Of a stretch of 50,487 nucleotides of DNA, positions 22,076 through 45,650 are shown piece after piece. The notes beneath the pieces were generated by a model. It searched no databases. It had not been told where the DNA came from and worked only from the letters and a program-made list of their open reading frames with translations. The first letter of the stretch is position 1, and the number at the start of each line of letters is the position of its first letter. Where the stretch lies: positions 1-50,487 of the forward strand of contig JACVJD010000006.1 in the NCBI GenBank assembly GCA_015711825.1. The letters are read 5' to 3'. Source of the stretch: Candidatus Solincola daggyaiensis. GTDB taxonomy: Bacteria; Actinomycetota; Geothermincolia; Geothermincolales; RBG-13-55-18. Both the position numbers and the translations under genes were made by a program.

Positions 22076-24691
<2,616 letters not shown>

Positions 24692-24922
24692 ATATCATCA
24701 CTTCCTTCCGGTTTCCCTTTCAGTCATAAACATTTTGCCCATTCCCGCCGGGAAAGCCCTCCACATCCCCTGGCGCAAGGCCATGAAGAACGCCTGTCCC
24801 CAAGCTCCCGCAAGGTCGCAAGCGATCGCCTGCCCACCTGCTCTCCCGGCCCTATGCGCAGCTCCTTCACGACCACGGTATGCTTGAAAGCCAGGGGGAT
24901 GTTTTCCCCGCTTCGCCTTGCC

Positions 24923-25411
24923 CTATCCACTCCCCTTTCGCGCCGAGGCGGCGCCTCCTCGGCCTCCCTCCTCGACGGAACGCAGGCGGTCGTACAAGCC
25001 GCGGAACGGGATCATCTCGCGCTTCAGGACGATCTCCCCCCGGGGCAGCGGCACGAGGTCGTTGCGGAAGCTCTCGCGCACCTCGCGCACCCGCTCCTCG
25101 ACCTCTCGCCGCAGCTCCTCCATCTCCCTCTCCATGGCGTGAACGCGCTCGCGCATGGCGTCCATGCGACCCCGCATCTCCAGGATCATCTTCACGCCGG
25201 CCAGGTTGATCCCCATCTCCTGGGTCAGTTCCTGGATGAGCCGGCACCTCTCGATGTCCGCCTCGGAATAGCGCCTGCGGTTGCGCACCCGCTGGGGGCT
25301 GATGAGGCCCTTGCGCTCGTAGATGCGCAAGGTCTGGGGGTGCACGTCCGCGAGACGCGCCGCCACGCTTATAACGTAAACAGGCTCGTCGCTAGCTCTT
25401 TTAGCGTCCAT
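24923..25411 (-). CDS. hspR: HspR, MerR-family heat-shock repressor
   Basis: A 162-residue repressor. The N-terminal winged helix reads [20 protein letters not shown] and is followed by [15 protein letters not shown], both typical of HspR. A long Glu/Arg-rich coiled coil at about 78-118 would dimerise it. In actinobacteria HspR represses dnaK by binding HAIR inverted repeats with DnaK as co-repressor. A matching operator lies upstream of dnaK here. The gene starts 10 bases after dnaJ and its ribosome site overlaps the dnaJ stop, suggesting coupling. The C-terminal 40 residues are longer and more basic than in many HspR proteins. Confidence 0.94.
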
Positions 25412-25421
25412 GTTCCATCAC

Positions 25422-26555
25422 CTACTCCTCCAGGAAGGCCCGCGGGTTCTCCTTCTCCATCCCCTGCAGCTTTTTCAGGAGCTCCTTCTCCTTGGCCGAG
25501 AGCTTCTTGGGCACCACCACCCGCGCGGTGACGATCATGTCGCCGTGGCTTTTCCCCTTGGGGCGGGGCGCGCCTTTGCCCCGGAGGCGGAACTTCCTCC
25601 CGTCCGCGGTGCCCGCGGGTATCTTCAGCTTCACCTTTCCGTTGACGGTGGGAACCTCCACCGTGGTGCCCAGCGCAGCCTCCGGAAAGGTTAAGGGCAG
25701 ATCGAGCAGGATGTCGGCGTCCTTCCGCTTGAAGTATTTATGCGGCCGCACGTGCACGTTGACATAGAGGTCGCCCGGAGGCGCCCCCAACGGTCCCGCC
25801 TCTCCCTTGCCGGGGAAGCGCACCTTGCCGCCGTCGTTTATCCCCGCCGGGATCTTCACCTTGATGCTGCGAGGCATCTCCTTGACCCCGGTGCCGCCGC
25901 ACCTCTCGCAGGGGTTTTCGATGACCGTGCCGCGACCGCCGCACGCCGGGCAGGGCCGCGAAAAGGCGAACAGCCCCTGGTTTTGCGACACCGAGCCCCT
26001 GCCCCCGCAGGTGGGGCAGGTCTTGGGCAAGGTGCCGGGCTTCGCCCCGCTGCCCTTGCACTCGGGGCAAGCGCTCTTCGCCGCCACCGTGAGGGGCACG
26101 GTGACGCCGGACAGCGCCTCCTCGAAGGATATGGTGACGTCGGCCGGGATGTCCCGTCCCCGGGCGGCCTCTCTGCGGCGTCCCCTGGCAGCGCCCGTGC
26201 CCAGGCCGCCGAAGAGGTTGAACAGGTCGCCCAGGTCGCCCAGGTCTCCGCTGTAGGTATAGGTTCGTGAACCCGGGCGCCCGGTGAAGGAGCTGAAATC
26301 GAAGGGCCCGAACCCGGCGCCGGTTCCGCCGTCCGGGAACATCCCTCCCGCATCATACTGCTTGCGCTTCTCGGGATCGGAAAGCACCTCGTATGCCTCC
26401 GATATCTCCTTGAACTTCTCCTCCGAGCCCTTGTCCCCGGGGTTGGCGTCGGGATGGTATTTGCGGGCAAGCTTGCGGTAGGCGTCCTTGATCTCCTTCT
26501 GAGACGCCTTCTTGTCGACTCCCAGTACCTTGTAATAATCCTTCGTCCCGTTCAC
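25422..26555 (-). CDS. dnaJ: DnaJ co-chaperone (type I)
   Basis: A 377-residue Hsp40 that delivers substrates to DnaK and stimulates its ATPase. The J domain (1-70) contains the HPD tripeptide in [12 protein letters not shown] Gly/Phe-rich stretch follows (about 75-130). Four CxxCxGxG-type zinc motifs are present ([32 protein letters not shown]), so it is a type I DnaJ. It starts at GTG with GAGAGG 9 bases upstream. It overlaps the translation signals of hspR. Confidence 0.96.
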
Positions 26556-26637
26556 AGCTCTCTACCTCTCTCGCAAGAATATGGCGGCGATATCGCGCCG
26601 GAGCGCCTTGCCGCCCCTTTCTTCAGCCCGCTGGGGA

Positions 26638-26657
26638 GGGGCCGGATTCCGGGCCCC
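26638..26657 (-). promoter_or_regulatory. Hairpin between grpE and dnaJ
   Basis: GGGGCC and GGCCCC flank an 8-base loop in the 193-base gap between grpE and dnaJ. It lacks a T-run, so it may be an mRNA processing or stability element rather than a terminator. Similar hairpins occur at two other junctions of this operon. Confidence 0.4.
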
Positions 26658-26748
26658 TGGACCGTCATCATCCTCATCGGGGCCGTGGGATCTACCTTGA
26701 ATTCATCCCCCTTTCCGCCAGTCGCTCAAGACCGCGTCACTACCTCGG

Positions 26749-27366
26749 TCACTCGCATTTGCTCACCGTGGCCCTGGCGGGGCGAAGCAGGGTGCCCTTA
26801 TAGCGATAGCCCTTCTGGTGCACCTCGACCACCGTCTCGTCGTCGTGATCGTCGCTTACCACCGCCATTACCGCCTCGCACTCCTCGGGGTTGAAGGGGT
26901 GCCCGTGCGGGTTGATCTCCTCCAGCCCCTCCTTTTTCAAGGCCGTCACGAGCTGCTCGTAAACCATGGACACGCCCCGCTTCAGGGCGTCATCCCGGTC
27001 CTCGCACGATTGGAGAGCCTTCTCCAGGTTATCGATAACAGGAAGCAGACCCGCGATGAGGGAGCGGTTCGCGGTCTCGATGATGCGCGACTGCTCCTTG
27101 ATCATCCTCTTCCTGTAGTTGTCGAGTTCCGCTTTCTGCCTCTGAGCGTCGTCGAGATACTCCCGCGCCTTGCGCTCGGCCTCCTCGAGCCTTTCCTCGA
27201 GCGCGACGACCATCTCCTCGAGTTCCTTCTTGGTGAGATGGTGCAGTTCACGCCGGCGCTTCCCGGAGTCCTCGCTCTCCTCCCGGGACCCCTCGGCGCC
27301 GTTGCCTTGCGCCATTTTCTCCTTTTCCATCTCCTCTTTCCTATCCTTTTTCTTGTCCTCGCTCAT
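26749..27366 (-). CDS. grpE: GrpE nucleotide exchange factor
   Basis: A 205-residue protein that exchanges ADP for ATP on DnaK. The first 45 residues are very charged and probably disordered, a long coiled coil covers about 50-115, and the C-terminal beta domain contains the family-like VYEQLVTALKKEGLEEINPH and HPFNPEECEAVMAV. GAGGTG precedes the ATG by 7 bases. It lies downstream of hsp20 and upstream of dnaJ. Confidence 0.95.
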   Translation of the reverse strand: MSEDKKKDRKEEMEKEKMAQGNGAEGSREESEDSGKRRRELHHLTKKELEEMVVALEERLEEAERKAREYLDDAQRQKAELDNYRKRMIKEQSRIIETANRSLIAGLLPVIDNLEKALQSCEDRDDALKRGVSMVYEQLVTALKKEGLEEINPHGHPFNPEECEAVMAVVSDDHDDETVVEVHQKGYRYKGTLLRPARATVSKCE

Positions 27367-27400
27367 GCGCTTTCACCTCGCTCCGATCCCCGCCCTCATG

Positions 27401-27430
27401 GCTGGGGCTGGACCCATGCCCAGCCCCAGC
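27401..27430 (-). promoter_or_regulatory. Strong hairpin between hsp20 and grpE
   Basis: An 11-base perfect stem (GCTGGGGCTGG and CCAGCCCCAGC) with an 8-base loop lies just downstream of the hsp20 stop. No T-run follows on the minus strand. It could attenuate transcription into grpE, mark an RNA processing site or protect the upstream mRNA. Confidence 0.55.
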
Positions 27431-27454
27431 ATCCGTGACCGTTCGCGGGGGAGA

Positions 27455-27922
27455 TCAGTCCTTCTTCTCCCCCTCCACCTTGATGGGGATCTGCTTGGGC
27501 TTGGCCTCCTCCGCCTTGGGCATCTCTATCTTGAGCACGCCGCCGGAGACGGAGGCCGCGACCTTTTCTGCGTCCACCTTGCGCGGCAGCGGTATATTGC
27601 GCTCGAAGTAACCGTAGGCCCGCTCGATGCGGTGATAGTTCTCCTCCTTGACCTCGTTGGAGAACTTCCTCTCGCCCTTGACGCGCAGGATGTCGTCCTC
27701 CAGGGAGATGTCGATATCCTTGGCGTCAAGGCCGGGCAGCTCTACCTCGACGGTGAGCTTGTCGTCGCTCTCATACATGTCGAGCGCTGGCGCCCAGGTG
27801 GCCGCGGTCTCCACCGCCGCCGGCGACTCCACTCCCCTGAAGAAGCTGCGCCGGAAGAGGCGGTTCACCTCGTCCTGCAGGTTCATCAGGTCCCGGAATG
27901 GATCCCATCTCACGATAGCCAT
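27455..27922 (-). CDS. Small heat-shock protein Hsp20
   Basis: A 155-residue alpha-crystallin-type holdase that binds unfolding proteins without ATP. It opens with the actinobacterial-style MAIVRWDPFRDLMNLQDEVN. The crystallin domain runs about 42-140 and includes VEVELPGLDAKDIDISLEDD and YGYFERNIPLPRKVD; a Lys-rich tail with a KPKQIPI motif (the usual IxI-type oligomer contact) ends the protein. I chose the ATG at 27922 (AAGGAG 8 bases upstream) over a GTG three codons earlier. Its place between dnaK and grpE is unusual for the actinobacterial operon. Confidence 0.93.
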   Translation of the reverse strand: MAIVRWDPFRDLMNLQDEVNRLFRRSFFRGVESPAAVETAATWAPALDMYESDDKLTVEVELPGLDAKDIDISLEDDILRVKGERKFSNEVKEENYHRIERAYGYFERNIPLPRKVDAEKVAASVSGGVLKIEMPKAEEAKPKQIPIKVEGEKKD

Positions 27923-27960
27923 CTTCCTCACTCCTTTCCTTATTTTCTATTTTTAAAGGG

Positions 27961-27979
27961 TGGGGCGCGCCGCGCCCCA
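27961..27979 (-). promoter_or_regulatory. Hairpin between dnaK and hsp20
   Basis: A perfect inverted repeat (TGGGGCGCG and CGCGCCCCA around one base) lies three bases beyond the dnaK stop codon, and on the transcript it is followed by CCCUUUAAAAA. It is strong but lacks a true U-tract, so partial termination or mRNA protection is more likely than full stop. Confidence 0.5.
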
Positions 27980-27982
27980 ACC

Positions 27983-29821
<1,839 letters not shown>

Positions 29822-37630: not shown

Positions 37631-37734
37631 GGGCAAAGGGAAGCGGACGGGTGGTGAGGTATATATATTTATATATTTATAGCCGGTTCCGAGCCGGCTG
37701 CGGCTGAAACATGTATTCCAAGGAGGTTGAAGAG

Positions 37735-40011
37735 ATGCGGAGGAAGGGCTTGTTGCGTTTCCTGCTCGCCTGCACGCCATGGCTGGTCCTTCCCGTTCTC
37801 GCTTATTTCGATCTGGTCAAGTGGGGCGCTCTTGCGGGCCTGGCCCTGGTCCTGCTGATGTTCCCGCTCATGCCGGCGAAAAGAAAGTGGGGGATTCTGC
37901 AGGCCTTTTCCCTCCTTTTCTTCCTGGTAGCCACGGCGGCCTCCTTCGTCCTCGGGGAGGATATCGCCACGCGCGTGCCCAACCTCCTGGCGGGAGGATT
38001 CGCCTGCCTTACCATCATGGCGGGATACGGCGCCCTGGAGGGCATCCTCTTTCCGTCCCATTACCTGTACCTAGATTACCCGGACAGCATGAGGGAGAGC
38101 CCTATATTGCGCCGCGCCATCTGGATCCTCACCTTGACCTGGGATGGGCTTTTTCTGGCCGGCCTGGCGGCCGATATCGCGGCCATGCTGGCCCTGCGCG
38201 GAGACACATCGGTTTCCGTGGCCTGCATCGCCTCGGGAGGGATCTTCGCGGCGGGCATGGCGGCGACCCCCGTCCTTTCCATCACCCTCCCGAAGCGCAT
38301 GGAGTCCGAGATGGTGGAGAAAAGCCCTCTTGCGGTGAGGTGGGAGCCCGCCGTGCTGGAGCCGGGACGCGGCCTGCGCGGCAACGAGTTCGACGTGGCG
38401 GTGGTGGGTGCGGGTATCGGGGGGCTTGCTTGCGCCTCCCTGCTCTCCCATGCCGGCATGAGGGTGCTGGTGGCGGAGAAAGCCAGGCTGGTCGGCGGTT
38501 ACTGCCAGACCTACAACTGGGAGGGCTTTCCACTCAATTCAGGTCCCACCATGCTCACGGGGGGAGCCGAGGGCGGCGTTCTCCACGGCCTTATCGCGCG
38601 ACTTGGGCTGGAGGGGGAGATAACCATGCGCAGGCTGGAGTGGGGCATAGCCGACGGCAGGATAGCCCTGCGCCTGGGCGCGGGAAGCGATGAGGATCTG
38701 GACAAGCTGGGCAAGAAGTTCCCCTCCTGCCGTGAAGGACTGCTACGCCTTTTCAACGACCTGCGCCGTTTCCGGGGCGAGTTCAGGGATCGCCGAGATC
38801 CTTTGACCTCCCCCCTGCCCTCAAGCCTGGAGGAGTACCATGAGCAGTTCGTACGCCATCCCGTCTCCGCGCTCTGGCAGAACCTCAGCTTCCAGGACAT
38901 GCTTGACGAGTACCTACCGGGAGAGCCGCTCGCCGCGCTTTTAGGAAAGACCGCCGCCCTGCTGGGAGGCGAGCCGGAGCGCTTCCCCGCCTACGAAGGA
39001 GCGAGGTTGCTCTCCTCGCTCTTCATCGACGGCATCCATTATCCGCGCCGCCACTTCTCGTACCTCAGCCAGAGGCTAGCCGAGCTGGTGCGCGAGGCGG
39101 GGGGCGAGGTGCTCACCTCTTGCGGCGCCGAGGAGGTGATGGTGAAGGGCGAGGGCTCTCATGCCGTACCCCTTGGTCTAAGGCTTTCCGACGGGACTCA
39201 GGTGAGATCGGGGGTGGTGGTGCTGGGCACAGACCCGCGACGGGCCGTGCCGGGCCTCATCCAGCCTCGCCATCTCGGACCGGAGATGCTCAAGGAGTTG
39301 CAGAAACTGCGCGTCTCCGATTCCGCCTTCGTCCTCCACCTCATCTTCCAGGAGGACCTGCGTATTCCGGAGAGGGTGCTGTACTTCCCGACCAGGGCAA
39401 GGCGCGTGCGCACCGGCGACACCTATATGAGCATAGATTCCATCATCCTGACCAAGGAACCGTGCGCGATCAAGGAAAGGCCCGGCTACGTGCTCATGGC
39501 GCGGGTGAACGTCCCCAGCCACTCCTATCACGCCTTCGATGAAGAAAAGGGCGGGGCGGAGCTGGCTTCGGAGCTTTCCGCGGCGATAAAAGAGGAGATA
39601 TCGTCGATACTTCCCGTGGTGAGGAAGGCGGTGAGGGAGTTCGTAACCACGCCGACGCATTTCAGCCGCCTGACCTCCAACGGGCAGGGCTGCGCATTCG
39701 GGTTCGCGCCCTTGGTCACGCAGTGGTATTACCGCCGACCCGGTCCGCGCCTCCCCCTCACCAACCTCTACCTGGTGGGAGCTTGGAGCCGTTTCGGAGG
39801 CGGGGTAGAGGGGGCGGTGTTGAGCGGTGCCGTCGCGGCGCGCGAGCTGTGCGGAGAGAACCCCTACGGGGGAGCGCTGGGCGCCTCCCCCCTGGGCGTC
39901 TCCGACTCGGCCGCGCAAGGCGAGGCGACGGAACCCGCCACCGGCGGCGAGGAAAAGGGCGCCCGGCGCTTAAGGCGAGGGAGAAGGAAAAGCCGGGAGG
40001 GAGAGGGTTAG
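37735..40011 (+). CDS. Six-helix membrane domain fused to a CrtI-like FAD oxidoreductase
   Basis: A 758-residue fusion. Residues 6-182 form six hydrophobic segments (about 6-25, 31-46, 54-74, 83-106, 129-154, 159-182). The FAD motif VVGAGIGGLACASLL begins at about 223, followed by VAEKARLVGGYCQTY and the GFPLNSGPTML segment typical of phytoene desaturase and carotenoid isomerase relatives; the C-terminal flavin motif reads LVGAWSRFGGGVEGAVLSG. The last 45 residues are Arg/Gly/Glu-rich. The substrate could be a carotenoid or other isoprenoid, or a retinol-like lipid; this is inferred. I chose the ATG at 37735, with AAGGAGG 8 bases upstream. A metallophosphoesterase gene starts 3 bases after the stop. 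Confidence 0.8.
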   Translation: MRRKGLLRFLLACTPWLVLPVLAYFDLVKWGALAGLALVLLMFPLMPAKRKWGILQAFSLLFFLVATAASFVLGEDIATRVPNLLAGGFACLTIMAGYGALEGILFPSHYLYLDYPDSMRESPILRRAIWILTLTWDGLFLAGLAADIAAMLALRGDTSVSVACIASGGIFAAGMAATPVLSITLPKRMESEMVEKSPLAVRWEPAVLEPGRGLRGNEFDVAVVGAGIGGLACASLLSHAGMRVLVAEKARLVGGYCQTYNWEGFPLNSGPTMLTGGAEGGVLHGLIARLGLEGEITMRRLEWGIADGRIALRLGAGSDEDLDKLGKKFPSCREGLLRLFNDLRRFRGEFRDRRDPLTSPLPSSLEEYHEQFVRHPVSALWQNLSFQDMLDEYLPGEPLAALLGKTAALLGGEPERFPAYEGARLLSSLFIDGIHYPRRHFSYLSQRLAELVREAGGEVLTSCGAEEVMVKGEGSHAVPLGLRLSDGTQVRSGVVVLGTDPRRAVPGLIQPRHLGPEMLKELQKLRVSDSAFVLHLIFQEDLRIPERVLYFPTRARRVRTGDTYMSIDSIILTKEPCAIKERPGYVLMARVNVPSHSYHAFDEEKGGAELASELSAAIKEEISSILPVVRKAVREFVTTPTHFSRLTSNGQGCAFGFAPLVTQWYYRRPGPRLPLTNLYLVGAWSRFGGGVEGAVLSGAVAARELCGENPYGGALGASPLGVSDSAAQGEATEPATGGEEKGARRLRRGRRKSREGEG

Positions 40012-41299: not shown

Positions 41300-41747
41300 C
41301 GCAGCCCCTCCAAGCTTGCCGACACCGCTATAAAGACTGCCGTTGACGTTTTCCGCCGCCGTTTTCCCACCCCTTCGCCGCGGGCACGCTCGGCGGCCCT
41401 CCATATCGCCGCCGCGAAAACCATGCCTTGTTCACGCCCACGCGCCCCAGCCGTAAGCCGGCGCCTGCAGCCCTCGCCGCCTGCAGGCTTCTCCCTCCTG
41501 CCATATTCACATTTTCGGCTTGAGGGGGAAAAAGTTGAAGCGGGGCGCGGCAAGGCCCACGCAGCCGGCAGCGGCGACGCCGGAGGAAGGCGGGGAATCG
41601 AGGCGTGGCGGGAATCGCCGCCGGCAACCGCAACATGCCCGTAACCCGGCGCTTGCCCACGGGGTTGTATAAATATAATGCGACTGGGTATATACTAAAA
41701 TGTAGCTTTTTCGTCTTTAATGCTTGCGCCGAAGAGAGGGGAACATC
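41300..41747. other. Spacer with candidate promoter for the radical SAM gene
   Basis: A 448-base gap between divergent genes. Its right end is AT-rich: a TATAAT at 41674-41679 lies 15 bases after TTGCCC, and further TATA-like steps follow up to 41705. One of these is likely the promoter of the radical SAM gene. The remainder shows no supported gene. Confidence 0.4.
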
Positions 41748-43196
41748 TTGAAGATCGCGTTGATCGAGCCTAAGGCACCCGGCGTGCACGTGTACGACAA
41801 GTTCAAGCTGCCCCGCCTGGGGCTGCCGCTGCTGGGCGCCCTCCTGGAGCGGGAACTCGGCATAAGGCCGACCATCTACTTCCAGGAGCTCAGCGGCCTG
41901 GACTGGGACGACCTCTCGGAATGCGATCTTGTGGGCATTTCCACCATCACCCCCACCGCCCCCGAGGCCTTCTCCATCCTCGAGCGCATCAAGCAACGCA
42001 GCAACATCCCCGTGGTCATGGGCGGCCCCCACGTGACCTTCCTACCCCAGGAGGCTCTGGAGCGGGGCGCCGATTTCGTCATCAGGGGCGAAGGAGAGTT
42101 CTCCTTCCTGGAACTGATCAAGGCCCTGGACGGCGGCGGGGGAGAGTTGGGGGCCATCCCGGGGCTTTCCTACCGCGTGGGCAGCCGCGTATTCCACAAC
42201 CCCGAGGTCCCCAGAGTCGAACACCTCGACGATCTCCCCTGGCCCGATCTCACCCTGATCAAGAACTACGAAAAGATCCGCATTCTCCCGGTGATGACCA
42301 GCCGGGGTTGCCCTTTCAACTGCAAGTTCTGTTCCGTGACCAAGATGTTCGGCAGGCGCTACCGCTTCCGGGACACCTCCGACGTCCTGGACGAGCTGGA
42401 GGCGCTTCACCGCAGCAACCCACGCGCCAGCTTCTTTTTCTACGACGACAACTTCACCGCCAGACCCTCCCGCACCAAGGAGCTCCTGCGCGGCATGATC
42501 GAGCGCGGCATAAAGGCGCATTGGACCGCCCAGGCCCGCGTGGACGTGGTCAAGGACACCGAGATGCTGGAACTCATGCGGGACAGCGGGTGCATCTTCC
42601 TTTACCTGGGACTGGAGTCCATCAATCCCAAGACCCTGGAGAGCTACCGCAAGGAGCAGACGGTGCAGGATATCGCCGAGGCGGTGAAGGTGCTGCATTC
42701 CTACCGCATCAGGGTGCACGGCATGTTCGTCCTGGGGTCGGACGACGACGACCTGGAGACCATCCGCGAGACGGTGCGCTTCGCTCGCGGCCTGAGGATA
42801 GACACGGTGCAGTTCCTGGTGCTCACGCCGCTGCCCGGCACCGAGACCTACGACGAATTGTGGCGTCAGGGGCGCATCCTGGTGGAGGACTGGTCGAAGT
42901 ACAGCGGCCATCACGTGGTGTTCAGCCCCTCCAAGATGACTCCCTACCAACTGCAGAAGGAGGCGTCCATCCGCTCTATGCGTCGTTTCTACTCCCTCTG
43001 GCAGTGTTGGAAGCTGGGGCTGCGCTTCCGCTGGTGGGATTTCATCATCTACGCCTACGCCCACCACTCCATAAGCCGCTGGCGTTCTCTCAACCGTGAG
43101 TTCCTGCGGGACCTCAAGCACAAGCACTTCCGTCTGCGGCCACCCTCCCCCCTCCCCCCCGTGGGCAACCTGGACCCGGACGCCGGGGGCACCTGA
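41748..43196 (+). CDS. B12-binding-type radical SAM protein
   Basis: A 482-residue protein. The N-terminal Rossmann-like domain (about 1-140) resembles the cobalamin-binding domain (GISTITPTAPEA, VMGGPHVTFLPQEAL). The radical SAM core starts with the cluster motif SRGCPFNCKFC at about 185-195. MFVLGSDDDDLETIRETV and VLTPLPGTETYDELW are typical of the later barrel. These enzymes usually perform methylations, cyclisations or ring contractions; the substrate is not deducible. I chose a TTG at 41748 with GAGGGG upstream, giving the usual start KIALIEPK. The C-terminal 100 residues are Arg/His/Trp-rich and may form another domain. Confidence 0.87.
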   Translation: MKIALIEPKAPGVHVYDKFKLPRLGLPLLGALLERELGIRPTIYFQELSGLDWDDLSECDLVGISTITPTAPEAFSILERIKQRSNIPVVMGGPHVTFLPQEALERGADFVIRGEGEFSFLELIKALDGGGGELGAIPGLSYRVGSRVFHNPEVPRVEHLDDLPWPDLTLIKNYEKIRILPVMTSRGCPFNCKFCSVTKMFGRRYRFRDTSDVLDELEALHRSNPRASFFFYDDNFTARPSRTKELLRGMIERGIKAHWTAQARVDVVKDTEMLELMRDSGCIFLYLGLESINPKTLESYRKEQTVQDIAEAVKVLHSYRIRVHGMFVLGSDDDDLETIRETVRFARGLRIDTVQFLVLTPLPGTETYDELWRQGRILVEDWSKYSGHHVVFSPSKMTPYQLQKEASIRSMRRFYSLWQCWKLGLRFRWWDFIIYAYAHHSISRWRSLNREFLRDLKHKHFRLRPPSPLPPVGNLDPDAGGT

Positions 43197-43379: not shown

Positions 43380-44105
43380 TTGGAGCTCAAGGTAGGTTGC
43401 TGCGGATTCCCCCAGGCGCGACAGATCTATTACGATACCCTGCCCCTGGTGGAGCTGCAGAAGACCTTCTACCAGCTCCCGCGGGTCAAAACGGCCCAGA
43501 AGTGGCGCCATGAATCCCCGCCCCATTTCGAGTTCACCCTCAAGGCATGGCAGCTTATCACCCACCGCCCCTCCAGCCCCACCTACAAGCGCCTTACCCA
43601 CCCCATACCGGAGGAGCTGCGCGATTCTTACGGATCCTTCAAGCCCACGCCGGAGAACTTCGCCGCCTGGCGCGACACCATGGAGGTGGCCGCGGCCCTG
43701 GATGCGGAAATCGTGCTCTTTCAGACCCCCGCCACTTTCACTCCCGGCCCCAAGAACATCGCGCAGATGCGCGAGTTCCTATCCACCATAGAGCGCGGCA
43801 GGCTTCAATTGGCCTGGGAACCCCGCGGCCAGTGGGACCCGGAAGAGGCGGGCAGGCTATGCCGCGAACTGGACTTGCTCCACGTCGTGGATCCCTTCCG
43901 GGGCAGGGAAAAGGCCGGGCAGGTCATTTACTGGCGCCTGCACGGCATCGGAAGCTACCGCCACCGCTATACCGACCAGGAGCTGGGAAAACTGGTCACC
44001 ATGTTGCGCAGAAGCAAGAAAAAACGGGCCTACGTGCTCTTCAACAACGTCAATATGTGGGAGGACGCCCAGCGATTGCAGGAGATATGGAGGAGACGCG
44101 CCTGA
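43380..44105 (+). CDS. DUF72 family protein
   Basis: A 241-residue TIM-barrel-like protein of DUF72 (YecE family). The N-terminal VGCCGFPQARQIYYDTLPLV and the FEFTLKAWQLITH segment, with many aromatic residues, are typical. LAWEPRGQWDPE and YWRLHGIGSYRHRYTD follow. The start is a TTG preceded by GAGGT. The biochemical role of the family is unknown; relation to endonuclease IV-like barrels is known only from structure. It lies convergent with the possible HEPN gene, 9 bases apart. Confidence 0.88.
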   Translation: MELKVGCCGFPQARQIYYDTLPLVELQKTFYQLPRVKTAQKWRHESPPHFEFTLKAWQLITHRPSSPTYKRLTHPIPEELRDSYGSFKPTPENFAAWRDTMEVAAALDAEIVLFQTPATFTPGPKNIAQMREFLSTIERGRLQLAWEPRGQWDPEEAGRLCRELDLLHVVDPFRGREKAGQVIYWRLHGIGSYRHRYTDQELGKLVTMLRRSKKKRAYVLFNNVNMWEDAQRLQEIWRRRA

Positions 44106-44114
44106 GGGGCGGCC

Positions 44115-44516
44115 TCACCCCTCCTCGCGCCGCCGCACCCGCGCCGCCAGCTCCCCCACGAAGGACCTCGCGTCCTCGAGGCACGCGGCGGAGGTGAGGG
44201 GATCGGCCTCCACCTCGCCGCTGGAAACACGACGGTAGAGGTCGGCGACGATGGGAAGGGAGCGCCGGTTCTCATTGCTCAATCCCAGGCGCGTCAGGCT
44301 CTCGCCCAGGAAAGCCTCCACCACGTCGCGCCAGCCCGACAGGCCGCTCCCCGCATCCACCGTCGCGCGCGCGGCGTAGAGCATGGCCAGGAAGGCGCTG
44401 GCCACCACCTCCTCCCCCATGCCCGCGAGCATGAACTCGCCCGCCATGGCCAGGGCCATCTCGGCCTGCTCCAGCCAATCCACCGCCGGATCATCGAACG
44501 CGAAAACCCCGATCAT
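44115..44516 (-). CDS. Possible HEPN-domain protein
   Basis: A 133-residue helical protein. The order of helices (an Ala-rich helix with EQAEMALAMAGEF, then FLAMLYAARATVDAG, a linker with VVEAFLGESL, an Arg-rich turn NRRSLPIVADLYRRV, and a final helix CLEDARSFVGELAARV) resembles UPF0332/HEPN proteins, which include RNase toxins. The RNase motif (R-x4-6-H) is absent, so it may be a non-catalytic relative. No partner minimal nucleotidyltransferase is next to it. GGGAGG precedes the ATG at 44516. Confidence 0.5.
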   Translation of the reverse strand: MIGVFAFDDPAVDWLEQAEMALAMAGEFMLAGMGEEVVASAFLAMLYAARATVDAGSGLSGWRDVVEAFLGESLTRLGLSNENRRSLPIVADLYRRVSSGEVEADPLTSAACLEDARSFVGELAARVRRREEG

Positions 44517-44726
44517 CCCGCCTCCCAAAGACAGAAGCCGACCTTAGCGGTTCAAGCGCTTCCCCACAAGATATCCATGCGTCCGTTTTCGCGCGCGTAT
44601 GTCGCAGCGCCGCGGTCGGAGTTGGCTGCTACTTGCCCCTGGAAGCGGGTTTTCTGTACTTGCGAGCTTTTTCGGATGCCTCCCGCCGCGCAAGCGCGTA
44701 CGCTGCCAACCGCTACCGTCTAACTT

Positions 44727-44732: not shown

Positions 44733-44786
44733 GTGGTGTACGAATACGGTCAAACGCCGCCGCGATACGCGCCCGAAAGGAGGGAG

Positions 44787-45650
44787 ATGGAGTTTTACAA
44801 ATACCACAGCCTCGGCAACGACTATATCCTCCTCGATGCCATGCGAGCGCCGCTGCGGCTTTCACCGGCGGATATACGGTCGCTGTGTGACCGCCATTTC
44901 GGCATCGGCGGCGACGGTATCCTGGTCATCGAGCCCTCGGAGAGGGCTTTTTGCCGCATGCTCAACTACAACCCCGATGCCAGCCAGGCCGAGACCAGCG
45001 GCAACGGCCTGCGCTGCCTGGCCAAGCACCTCTACGAAACCGGCCTATACCCCCACAGGGAAATGGAGGTTGACACCCCCTCGGGGGTAAAGGGGCTGAG
45101 CGTCCGCGTGGCGGGAGGCAAGGTGCGCACGGTGGAGGTGAACATGGGCCGACCCGATTTCCGCCGCTCCTCTATCCCCATGCACGGTGAAGGGGAGGAG
45201 GCCTTAGAGGTGGAACTCGAGGCCGCGGGAAGGAGGATGACCGCCACCTGCCTGTCGCTGGGCACGCCCCACTGCGTGATCTTCCTGGAGGATATCGAGT
45301 CCGTTGCCGTGGGCGAGATCGGCCCCGCCATCGAGAAGGACCCCGCCTTTCCCCTGCGCGTCAACGTGGAGTTCGTGCAGGTCGTCGACCTTTCCGAGCT
45401 GAGACAGCGTTCCTGGGAAAGAGGCGCGGGGGAGACCCTGGCCAGCGCCGCCGGCGCCGGCGCCGCGGTCGCCGCAGCGGAGCGCGCCGGCAAGTGCAAG
45501 CGCAGGGTCCACGTGAAGCTGCCGGGAGGACTCATGGAGGTGGAGATCTCCGCCTCGGGAGAGGTCCTCACACGCGGTCCCGCCCGCAGGGTTTTCCGCG
45601 GCCGGTTGGACGAGGACTGGCGCGAGCGCAGCCGCATCGTGCTCGCATGA
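44787..45650 (+). CDS. Diaminopimelate epimerase homologue without catalytic cysteines
   Basis: A 287-residue protein of the DapF family by several landmarks: SLGNDYILLD at 8-17, FGIGGDGILVI, NPDASQAETSGNGLRC (61-77), LGTPHCVIFLEDI, RVNVEFVQVV and the ERGAGETLA motif at 211-219. DapF epimerises LL- to meso-diaminopimelate with two cysteines, one in CGNG and one in LACGTG. Here these positions are Ser71 (TSGNG) and Ser220 (LASAAG). The change is read directly from the codons. It could be a diverged racemase on another substrate, a serine/cysteine-independent enzyme or a non-catalytic binding protein. An AGGAGG site precedes the ATG. The gene is separate from other lysine genes. Confidence 0.82.
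   Translation: MEFYKYHSLGNDYILLDAMRAPLRLSPADIRSLCDRHFGIGGDGILVIEPSERAFCRMLNYNPDASQAETSGNGLRCLAKHLYETGLYPHREMEVDTPSGVKGLSVRVAGGKVRTVEVNMGRPDFRRSSIPMHGEGEEALEVELEAAGRRMTATCLSLGTPHCVIFLEDIESVAVGEIGPAIEKDPAFPLRVNVEFVQVVDLSELRQRSWERGAGETLASAAGAGAAVAAAERAGKCKRRVHVKLPGGLMEVEISASGEVLTRGPARRVFRGRLDEDWRERSRIVLA

Follow-up and report, generated by a model that had tools for sequence, protein, structure and literature searches.

The gene at 44787..45650 (+) of the window, which is the whole stretch of 50,487 nucleotides from Candidatus Solincola daggyaiensis that was analysed, encodes a 287-aa member of the diaminopimelate epimerase (DapF) family in which serine stands at both catalytic cysteine positions. 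DapF itself is a textbook case of an enzyme with two cysteines, and it is a target for antibacterial agents. Judged from its sequence and distribution the Ser/Ser gene is an ancient paralogue of DapF specific to its order, since its genome encodes a conventional DapF with both cysteines as well, and we tentatively favour the reading that it is a diverged enzyme carrying out amino-acid chemistry on a substrate that resembles diaminopimelate (DAP) but is not DAP itself.

The first motif of the open frame, QAETSGNGLRCLA, has SGNG at residues 71-74, with Ser71 (codon AGC, 44997..44999, +) directly before helix 72-84, and the second, WERGAGETLASAAGAG, has LASAAG at 218-223, with Ser220 (codon AGC, 45444..45446, +) directly before helix 221-233. 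Residues 1-274 match the DapF profile TIGR00652 with 251.6 bits over positions 1-268 of 270, the curated cut-off being 114.65 bits, and the protein matches PF01678 with 167.2 bits (cut-off 34.7). A phmmer alignment places Ser71 and Ser220 onto the catalytic cysteines of the Anabaena and E. coli enzymes, and translation, profile and alignment together bear out the sequence-only reading that both cysteines of the family are replaced. The two catalytic cysteines by which DapF is recognised are therefore lacking, not only in the window but in all 12 orthologues, which have Ser71 and Ser220 in their place. A GTG codon is also present upstream at 44733, but the orthologues align from the residue at 44787, which supports that start.

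Orthologues of the Ser/Ser gene are found in 11 of the 15 genomes of its own family, at 63-86% identity; one is present in each of the 11 family genomes with a completeness of 90% or more, and the four genomes that lack one are 62-89% complete. One genome from a second family of the same order also holds an orthologue (445 bits), and no score above 314 bits came from the 13 remaining genomes of the class or the remainder of a 396-genome sample of the phylum, leaving a clear gap. A scan of 84,980 species genomes gave two close records, at 86% and 72%, which are apparently two of the family genomes already counted (G013 and G006, identical proteins), and beyond those two records nothing above 47%. 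Both positions are serine in 12/12 orthologues, as the sequence-only reading had proposed checking, and the codons are always AGC or AGT, so that neither sequencing error, which that reading had already thought the less likely, nor chance would explain the pair. In the tree these sequences form a single clade with support of 100, and because branching within it follows the genera this indicates vertical descent from a duplication that would date back at least to the split between the two families.

Vertical inheritance is further argued by synteny across the clade. A DUF72 gene (43380..44105, + in the window; PF01904, 121.8 bits) lies upstream and on the same strand in 12/12 orthologous loci, as the immediate neighbour in some (such as those of G008 and G009) and separated by one or two genes in others, and FmdE-like, VOC and DUF2804 genes lie downstream in 8 of the 12. 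The neighbours of the locus (DUF72, HEPN-like, FmdE-like, VOC and radical SAM) include no DAP or lysine gene and none names a pathway; function could not be read from the neighbourhood, as DUF72 is uncharacterised and the other neighbours point to no pathway. Between the DUF72 gene and the Ser/Ser gene is a small gene on the opposite strand (44115-44528, -) with a weak HEPN match (16.9 bits, cut-off 22), which evolves faster than its neighbours (dN about 0.13). Elsewhere in the window a BchE/HpnJ-type radical SAM protein that binds B12 (41724-43196, +), for which the best NCBIfam matches are well below cut-off, adjoins a CrtI-like FAD oxidoreductase (37711-40011), the synteny of both being conserved, and clpB, dnaJ, grpE and dnaK stand in a row at 22076-29821 (-), by eye from the translations an ordinary heat-shock cluster. 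An Rfam scan of the window gave no match.

The rate at which the gene evolves was compared with that of the Cys/Cys copy using NG86 values. In pairs from the same genomes dN was 0.087 for the Ser/Ser gene vs 0.210 for the Cys/Cys copy and 0.102 vs 0.206, and in two further genome pairs 0.094 vs 0.142 and 0.134 vs 0.257; within the genus dN/dS of the Ser/Ser gene is about 0.13-0.20. Because its dN is below that of the Cys/Cys copy and within the range of neighbouring genes, the Ser/Ser gene is, on these substitution rates, functional and constrained, under purifying selection.

The source genome (190 contigs, 95.4% complete, 2.24% contamination) has a single further PF01678 protein, encoded on contig C141, which reads CGNG and ACGTG, and the search for a second, cysteine-containing dapF that the sequence-only reading had suggested was thus answered in the affirmative. 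This Cys/Cys dapF sits between a miaA-like gene and the LL-diaminopimelate aminotransferase gene dapL (TIGR03540, 597 bits), with murE (523 bits) and lysA (525 bits) elsewhere in the genome. It groups with the Cys/Cys copies of two congeneric genomes with support of 99 and is therefore not a contaminant, and since it lies with dapL in a genome that also has murE and lysA, DAP epimerisation is covered. Another genome of the same family, G008, has in the syntenic miaA-dapF-dapL position (L148:7965-8810) a Ser/Cys copy, with TCA as its first-position codon, and also carries the Ser/Ser paralogue; no Cys/Cys DapF was found in this 92% complete assembly.

The AlphaFold2 model of the Ser/Ser protein (pLDDT 94.4, pTM 0.90) has Anabaena DapF 9mro_A as its best solved structural match (TM 0.91/0.94), the best PDB matches being DapFs, and it predicts the two-domain fold of DapF with S71 and S220 placed where the two cysteine-bearing helices of DapF begin. 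The Ser/Ser clade shows no variation at N11, N62, G72, N73, H162, N193, E211 and R212, residues common to Cys/Cys DapF; apart from H162, all of them have equivalents that contact DAP analogues in Anabaena DapF (PMC12039745), namely Asn13, Asn66, Gly76, Asn77, Asn197, Glu215 and Arg216, each kept in the clade without exception. Other positions of the pocket have changed. G221 (Anabaena Gly225), which is Gly in Cys/Cys DapF and caps the second helix, is Ala in 12/12 orthologues. The T222 position, equivalent to the Anabaena Thr226 that contacts the alpha-carboxylate of DAP (PMC12039745), is Ala in eight orthologues, including the window gene (A222), and Thr in four, so that the contact is lost in 8/12; the N160 position, equivalent to Asn164, a contact of the distal carboxylate (PMC12039745), is Thr in seven, Asn in three and Ser in two, and is thus lost in 9/12. 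The two hydroxyls appear to be held, since both serines are invariant in 12/12 while these nearby substrate-contact positions vary. N60, P63, H81, S209, R267 and R268 also set the clade apart from Cys/Cys DapFs, as does a C-terminal tail at residues 275-287 (DEDWRERSRIVLA; 45609..45647, +) that is conserved in the Ser/Ser clade, extends past the end of most DapF proteins and has low confidence in the model.

A unique loss of the cysteines in the window gene is ruled out, as serine occurs at these positions in other members of the phylum. A DNA-pattern search with SGNGxRC found first-position serine in 19 further members of the Actinomycetota outside the Ser/Ser orthologues, including the syntenic copy of G008, and second-position serine was found in others by the same approach; reversed-pattern controls gave 0, 0 and 1 match, with none for the first-position pattern, and the numbers of Ser-type genomes are minimum values as the patterns fixed neighbouring residues. 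Eighteen of those 19 genomes give no TIGR00652 match other than the Ser/Cys protein. Among the families examined further, Ser/Cys is the state in all tested members of f28 (9/9 with a match), f51 (7/7), f44, f71 and f74, and in f31 second-position serine is found in 4/4, as the only DapF copy found. The same is true of one genus of f18, where two of three genomes have Cys/Ser proteins and the third, with a broken frame, has serine at the second position. The Cys/Ser DapFs of these two families (L228, L227 and L224) read LASGTG or LASGSG. In at least eight other families of the phylum a Ser/Cys or Cys/Ser protein is the only DapF found. Many of these genomes are metagenome assemblies, in which a missing second DapF is weak evidence for one genome and stronger across whole families. 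Outside the phylum a DapF of a Bacillota MAG (L055:8001-8831) reads MGGNAIRC, with Gly in place of the first catalytic Cys and the second Cys retained.

A Ser/Ser protein is the only DapF in 8/8 genomes of a further family of the Actinomycetota, f43, which are 94-99% complete and include G165, G225, G277 and G134. These proteins (L252:5989-6801 of G277, L250:5276-6124 of G165, L251 and L253) read SGNGAR and SSGTG, have Gln for the usual His, and keep N, T and G at the N160, T222 and G221 positions. In G277 the gene lies within miaA-dapF-dapL and in G165 it adjoins miaA as well as dapD and a dapC-type gene, settings which are those expected of the epimerase of the DAP pathway. A tree built with the two catalytic columns masked, a quick one with weak deep branches, places f43 and the window clade in two separate supported groups and implies a minimum of five changes at the first position and of four at the second. 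Taken together the sole DapFs of Ser type suggest that the serines may be compatible with DAP epimerisation, and the f43 proteins are perhaps more telling on serine catalysis than the window gene itself. A search of the literature outside the subscription journals found no paper on natural DapFs with serine for cysteine.

It is because sole DapFs in near-complete genomes can be Ser/Cys, Cys/Ser or Ser/Ser that serines alone would not prove the loss of DAP chemistry. The sequence-only reading took the serine pair as a sign of changed function; such a change is still plausible, given that the pair is real and clade-wide, that the gene is under purifying selection and that a separate Cys/Cys dapF exists, but the inference that serine at the catalytic positions in itself marks a lost DapF function is not supported. 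The better argument for a changed function would be paralogy together with the further changes in the pocket (G221A, T222A and N160T/S).

How the Ser/Ser protein might work depends on which of several explanations is taken. Under altered amino-acid chemistry the DapF duplicate would have kept the fold and most of the amino-acid-binding pocket, with a serine at the N-terminus of each active-site helix, and would act on a DAP-like substrate other than DAP, whilst the Cys/Cys copy would make meso-DAP. The reaction could be a racemisation, an epimerisation or a one-base elimination, and at least one of the two serines would serve in it as acid or base. We prefer this explanation by a small margin, inferring both that the protein is catalytic and that its substrate is not DAP, because the serines are kept, the DAP-specific contacts are relaxed and the Cys/Cys copy covers DAP; the dN below that of the Cys/Cys copy, the loss of two carboxylate contacts in most orthologues and the precedent of active Ser/Cys and Ser/Thr enzymes in the sister proline racemase superfamily (PMC4113996) also speak for it, and the sole Ser/Ser DapFs beside DAP genes in f43 suggest that two serines are compatible with function. 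Against it, no pathway gene lies beside the locus and no substrate is indicated, the hydroxyl of serine is much less acidic (pKa about 16 vs about 10, quoted in PMC8225329), and change of cysteine to serine nearly abolishes activity in the DapF relatives HisR (C67S, C209S; PMC11602996) and PddB (C101S, C233S; PMC8225329). Engineered mutants of this kind fold but lose activity (PMC11602996, PMC12039745, PMC8225329), which lends some weight to a possible, if somewhat doubtful, alternative in which DAP or an amino acid related to it is bound but not turned over, the protein serving in sensing, in regulation or as a subunit that partners the Cys/Cys DapF. Both catalytic thiols are gone whilst most binding residues stay, and the tail, conserved in this clade only, could be a docking surface; it is nevertheless serine, and not drift to any residue, that is found at both sites in 12/12 orthologues, Ser/Ser and Ser/Cys proteins are the sole DapF elsewhere, and there is no evidence for a partner.

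It would seem unlikely that the gene encodes a redundant DAP epimerase, a serine-dyad isozyme making meso-DAP perhaps when the cysteines of the other copy are oxidised or inactivated. The f43 proteins, each the sole DapF and in two genomes set among DAP genes, speak for such an isozyme, as does G008, where Cys/Cys is lacking and the two copies are Ser/Cys and Ser/Ser; unlike f43, however, the window clade has largely lost N160 and T222 and has Ala for G221 throughout, and its gene is not near DAP genes. A sequencing error, contamination or a decaying gene is very improbable in spite of the fragmented assembly and its measurable contamination, and artefact or pseudogene is ruled out by the 12 orthologues from independent assemblies, which share both serines, synteny and open frames, together with the low dN/dS.

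A wider statement, to which we would give rather little assurance, is that DapF-family epimerases can run on a Ser-Ser pair, the window clade being an amino-acid epimerase or lyase of Ser/Ser type that takes a new substrate, and Ser/Ser or Ser/Cys DapFs in other Actinomycetota families being working DAP epimerases. If true, catalysis by a serine pair would contradict the thiolate-thiol rule. The clade-wide Ser/Ser paralogue and the sole DapFs of Ser type allow a direct test of serine in 1,1-proton transfer. Pipelines that annotate all Ser-type proteins as diaminopimelate epimerase may name some of them correctly and others not, and thiol-directed DapF inhibitors would miss the Ser-type DapFs.

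Amongst known systems the window protein is closest to DapF itself (TIGR00652, PF01678; solved as 9mro, 4ijz and 1gqz), to which it is alike in the full-length profile match, the predicted fold and most substrate-contact residues, and from which it differs in the Ser/Ser pair, the Ala after the second serine, the relaxed N160 and T222, the conserved tail, its place away from DAP genes and the presence of a Cys/Cys DapF in the same genome. The f43 DapFs share serine at both catalytic positions and a TIGR00652 match above cut-off, but are a separate branch of sole DapFs that keep N160, G221 and T222, lie beside dapL or dapD/dapC, and have Gln in place of H162. Two members of the proline racemase superfamily, a Ser/Cys 4-hydroxyproline epimerase (B9JQV3) and a Ser/Thr trans-3-hydroxyproline dehydratase (B9K4G4; PMC4113996), are active with a natural serine for a catalytic cysteine in an active site that is likewise built on two helices and belongs to the same class of fold; the superfamily is another family (PF05544) with other substrates and no Ser/Ser pair among those reported (PMC4113996), and membership was rejected for the window protein, which scores 13 bits against a gathering cut-off of 27. 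The histidine racemases CntK and HisR, PddB (diaminobutyrate) and DcsC (O-ureidoserine) are DapF relatives with a changed amino-acid substrate, but as far as described they keep the two catalytic cysteines. Finally, Cys-to-Ser mutants of glutamate racemase still eliminate chloride from 3-chloroglutamate (reviewed in PMC8142540).
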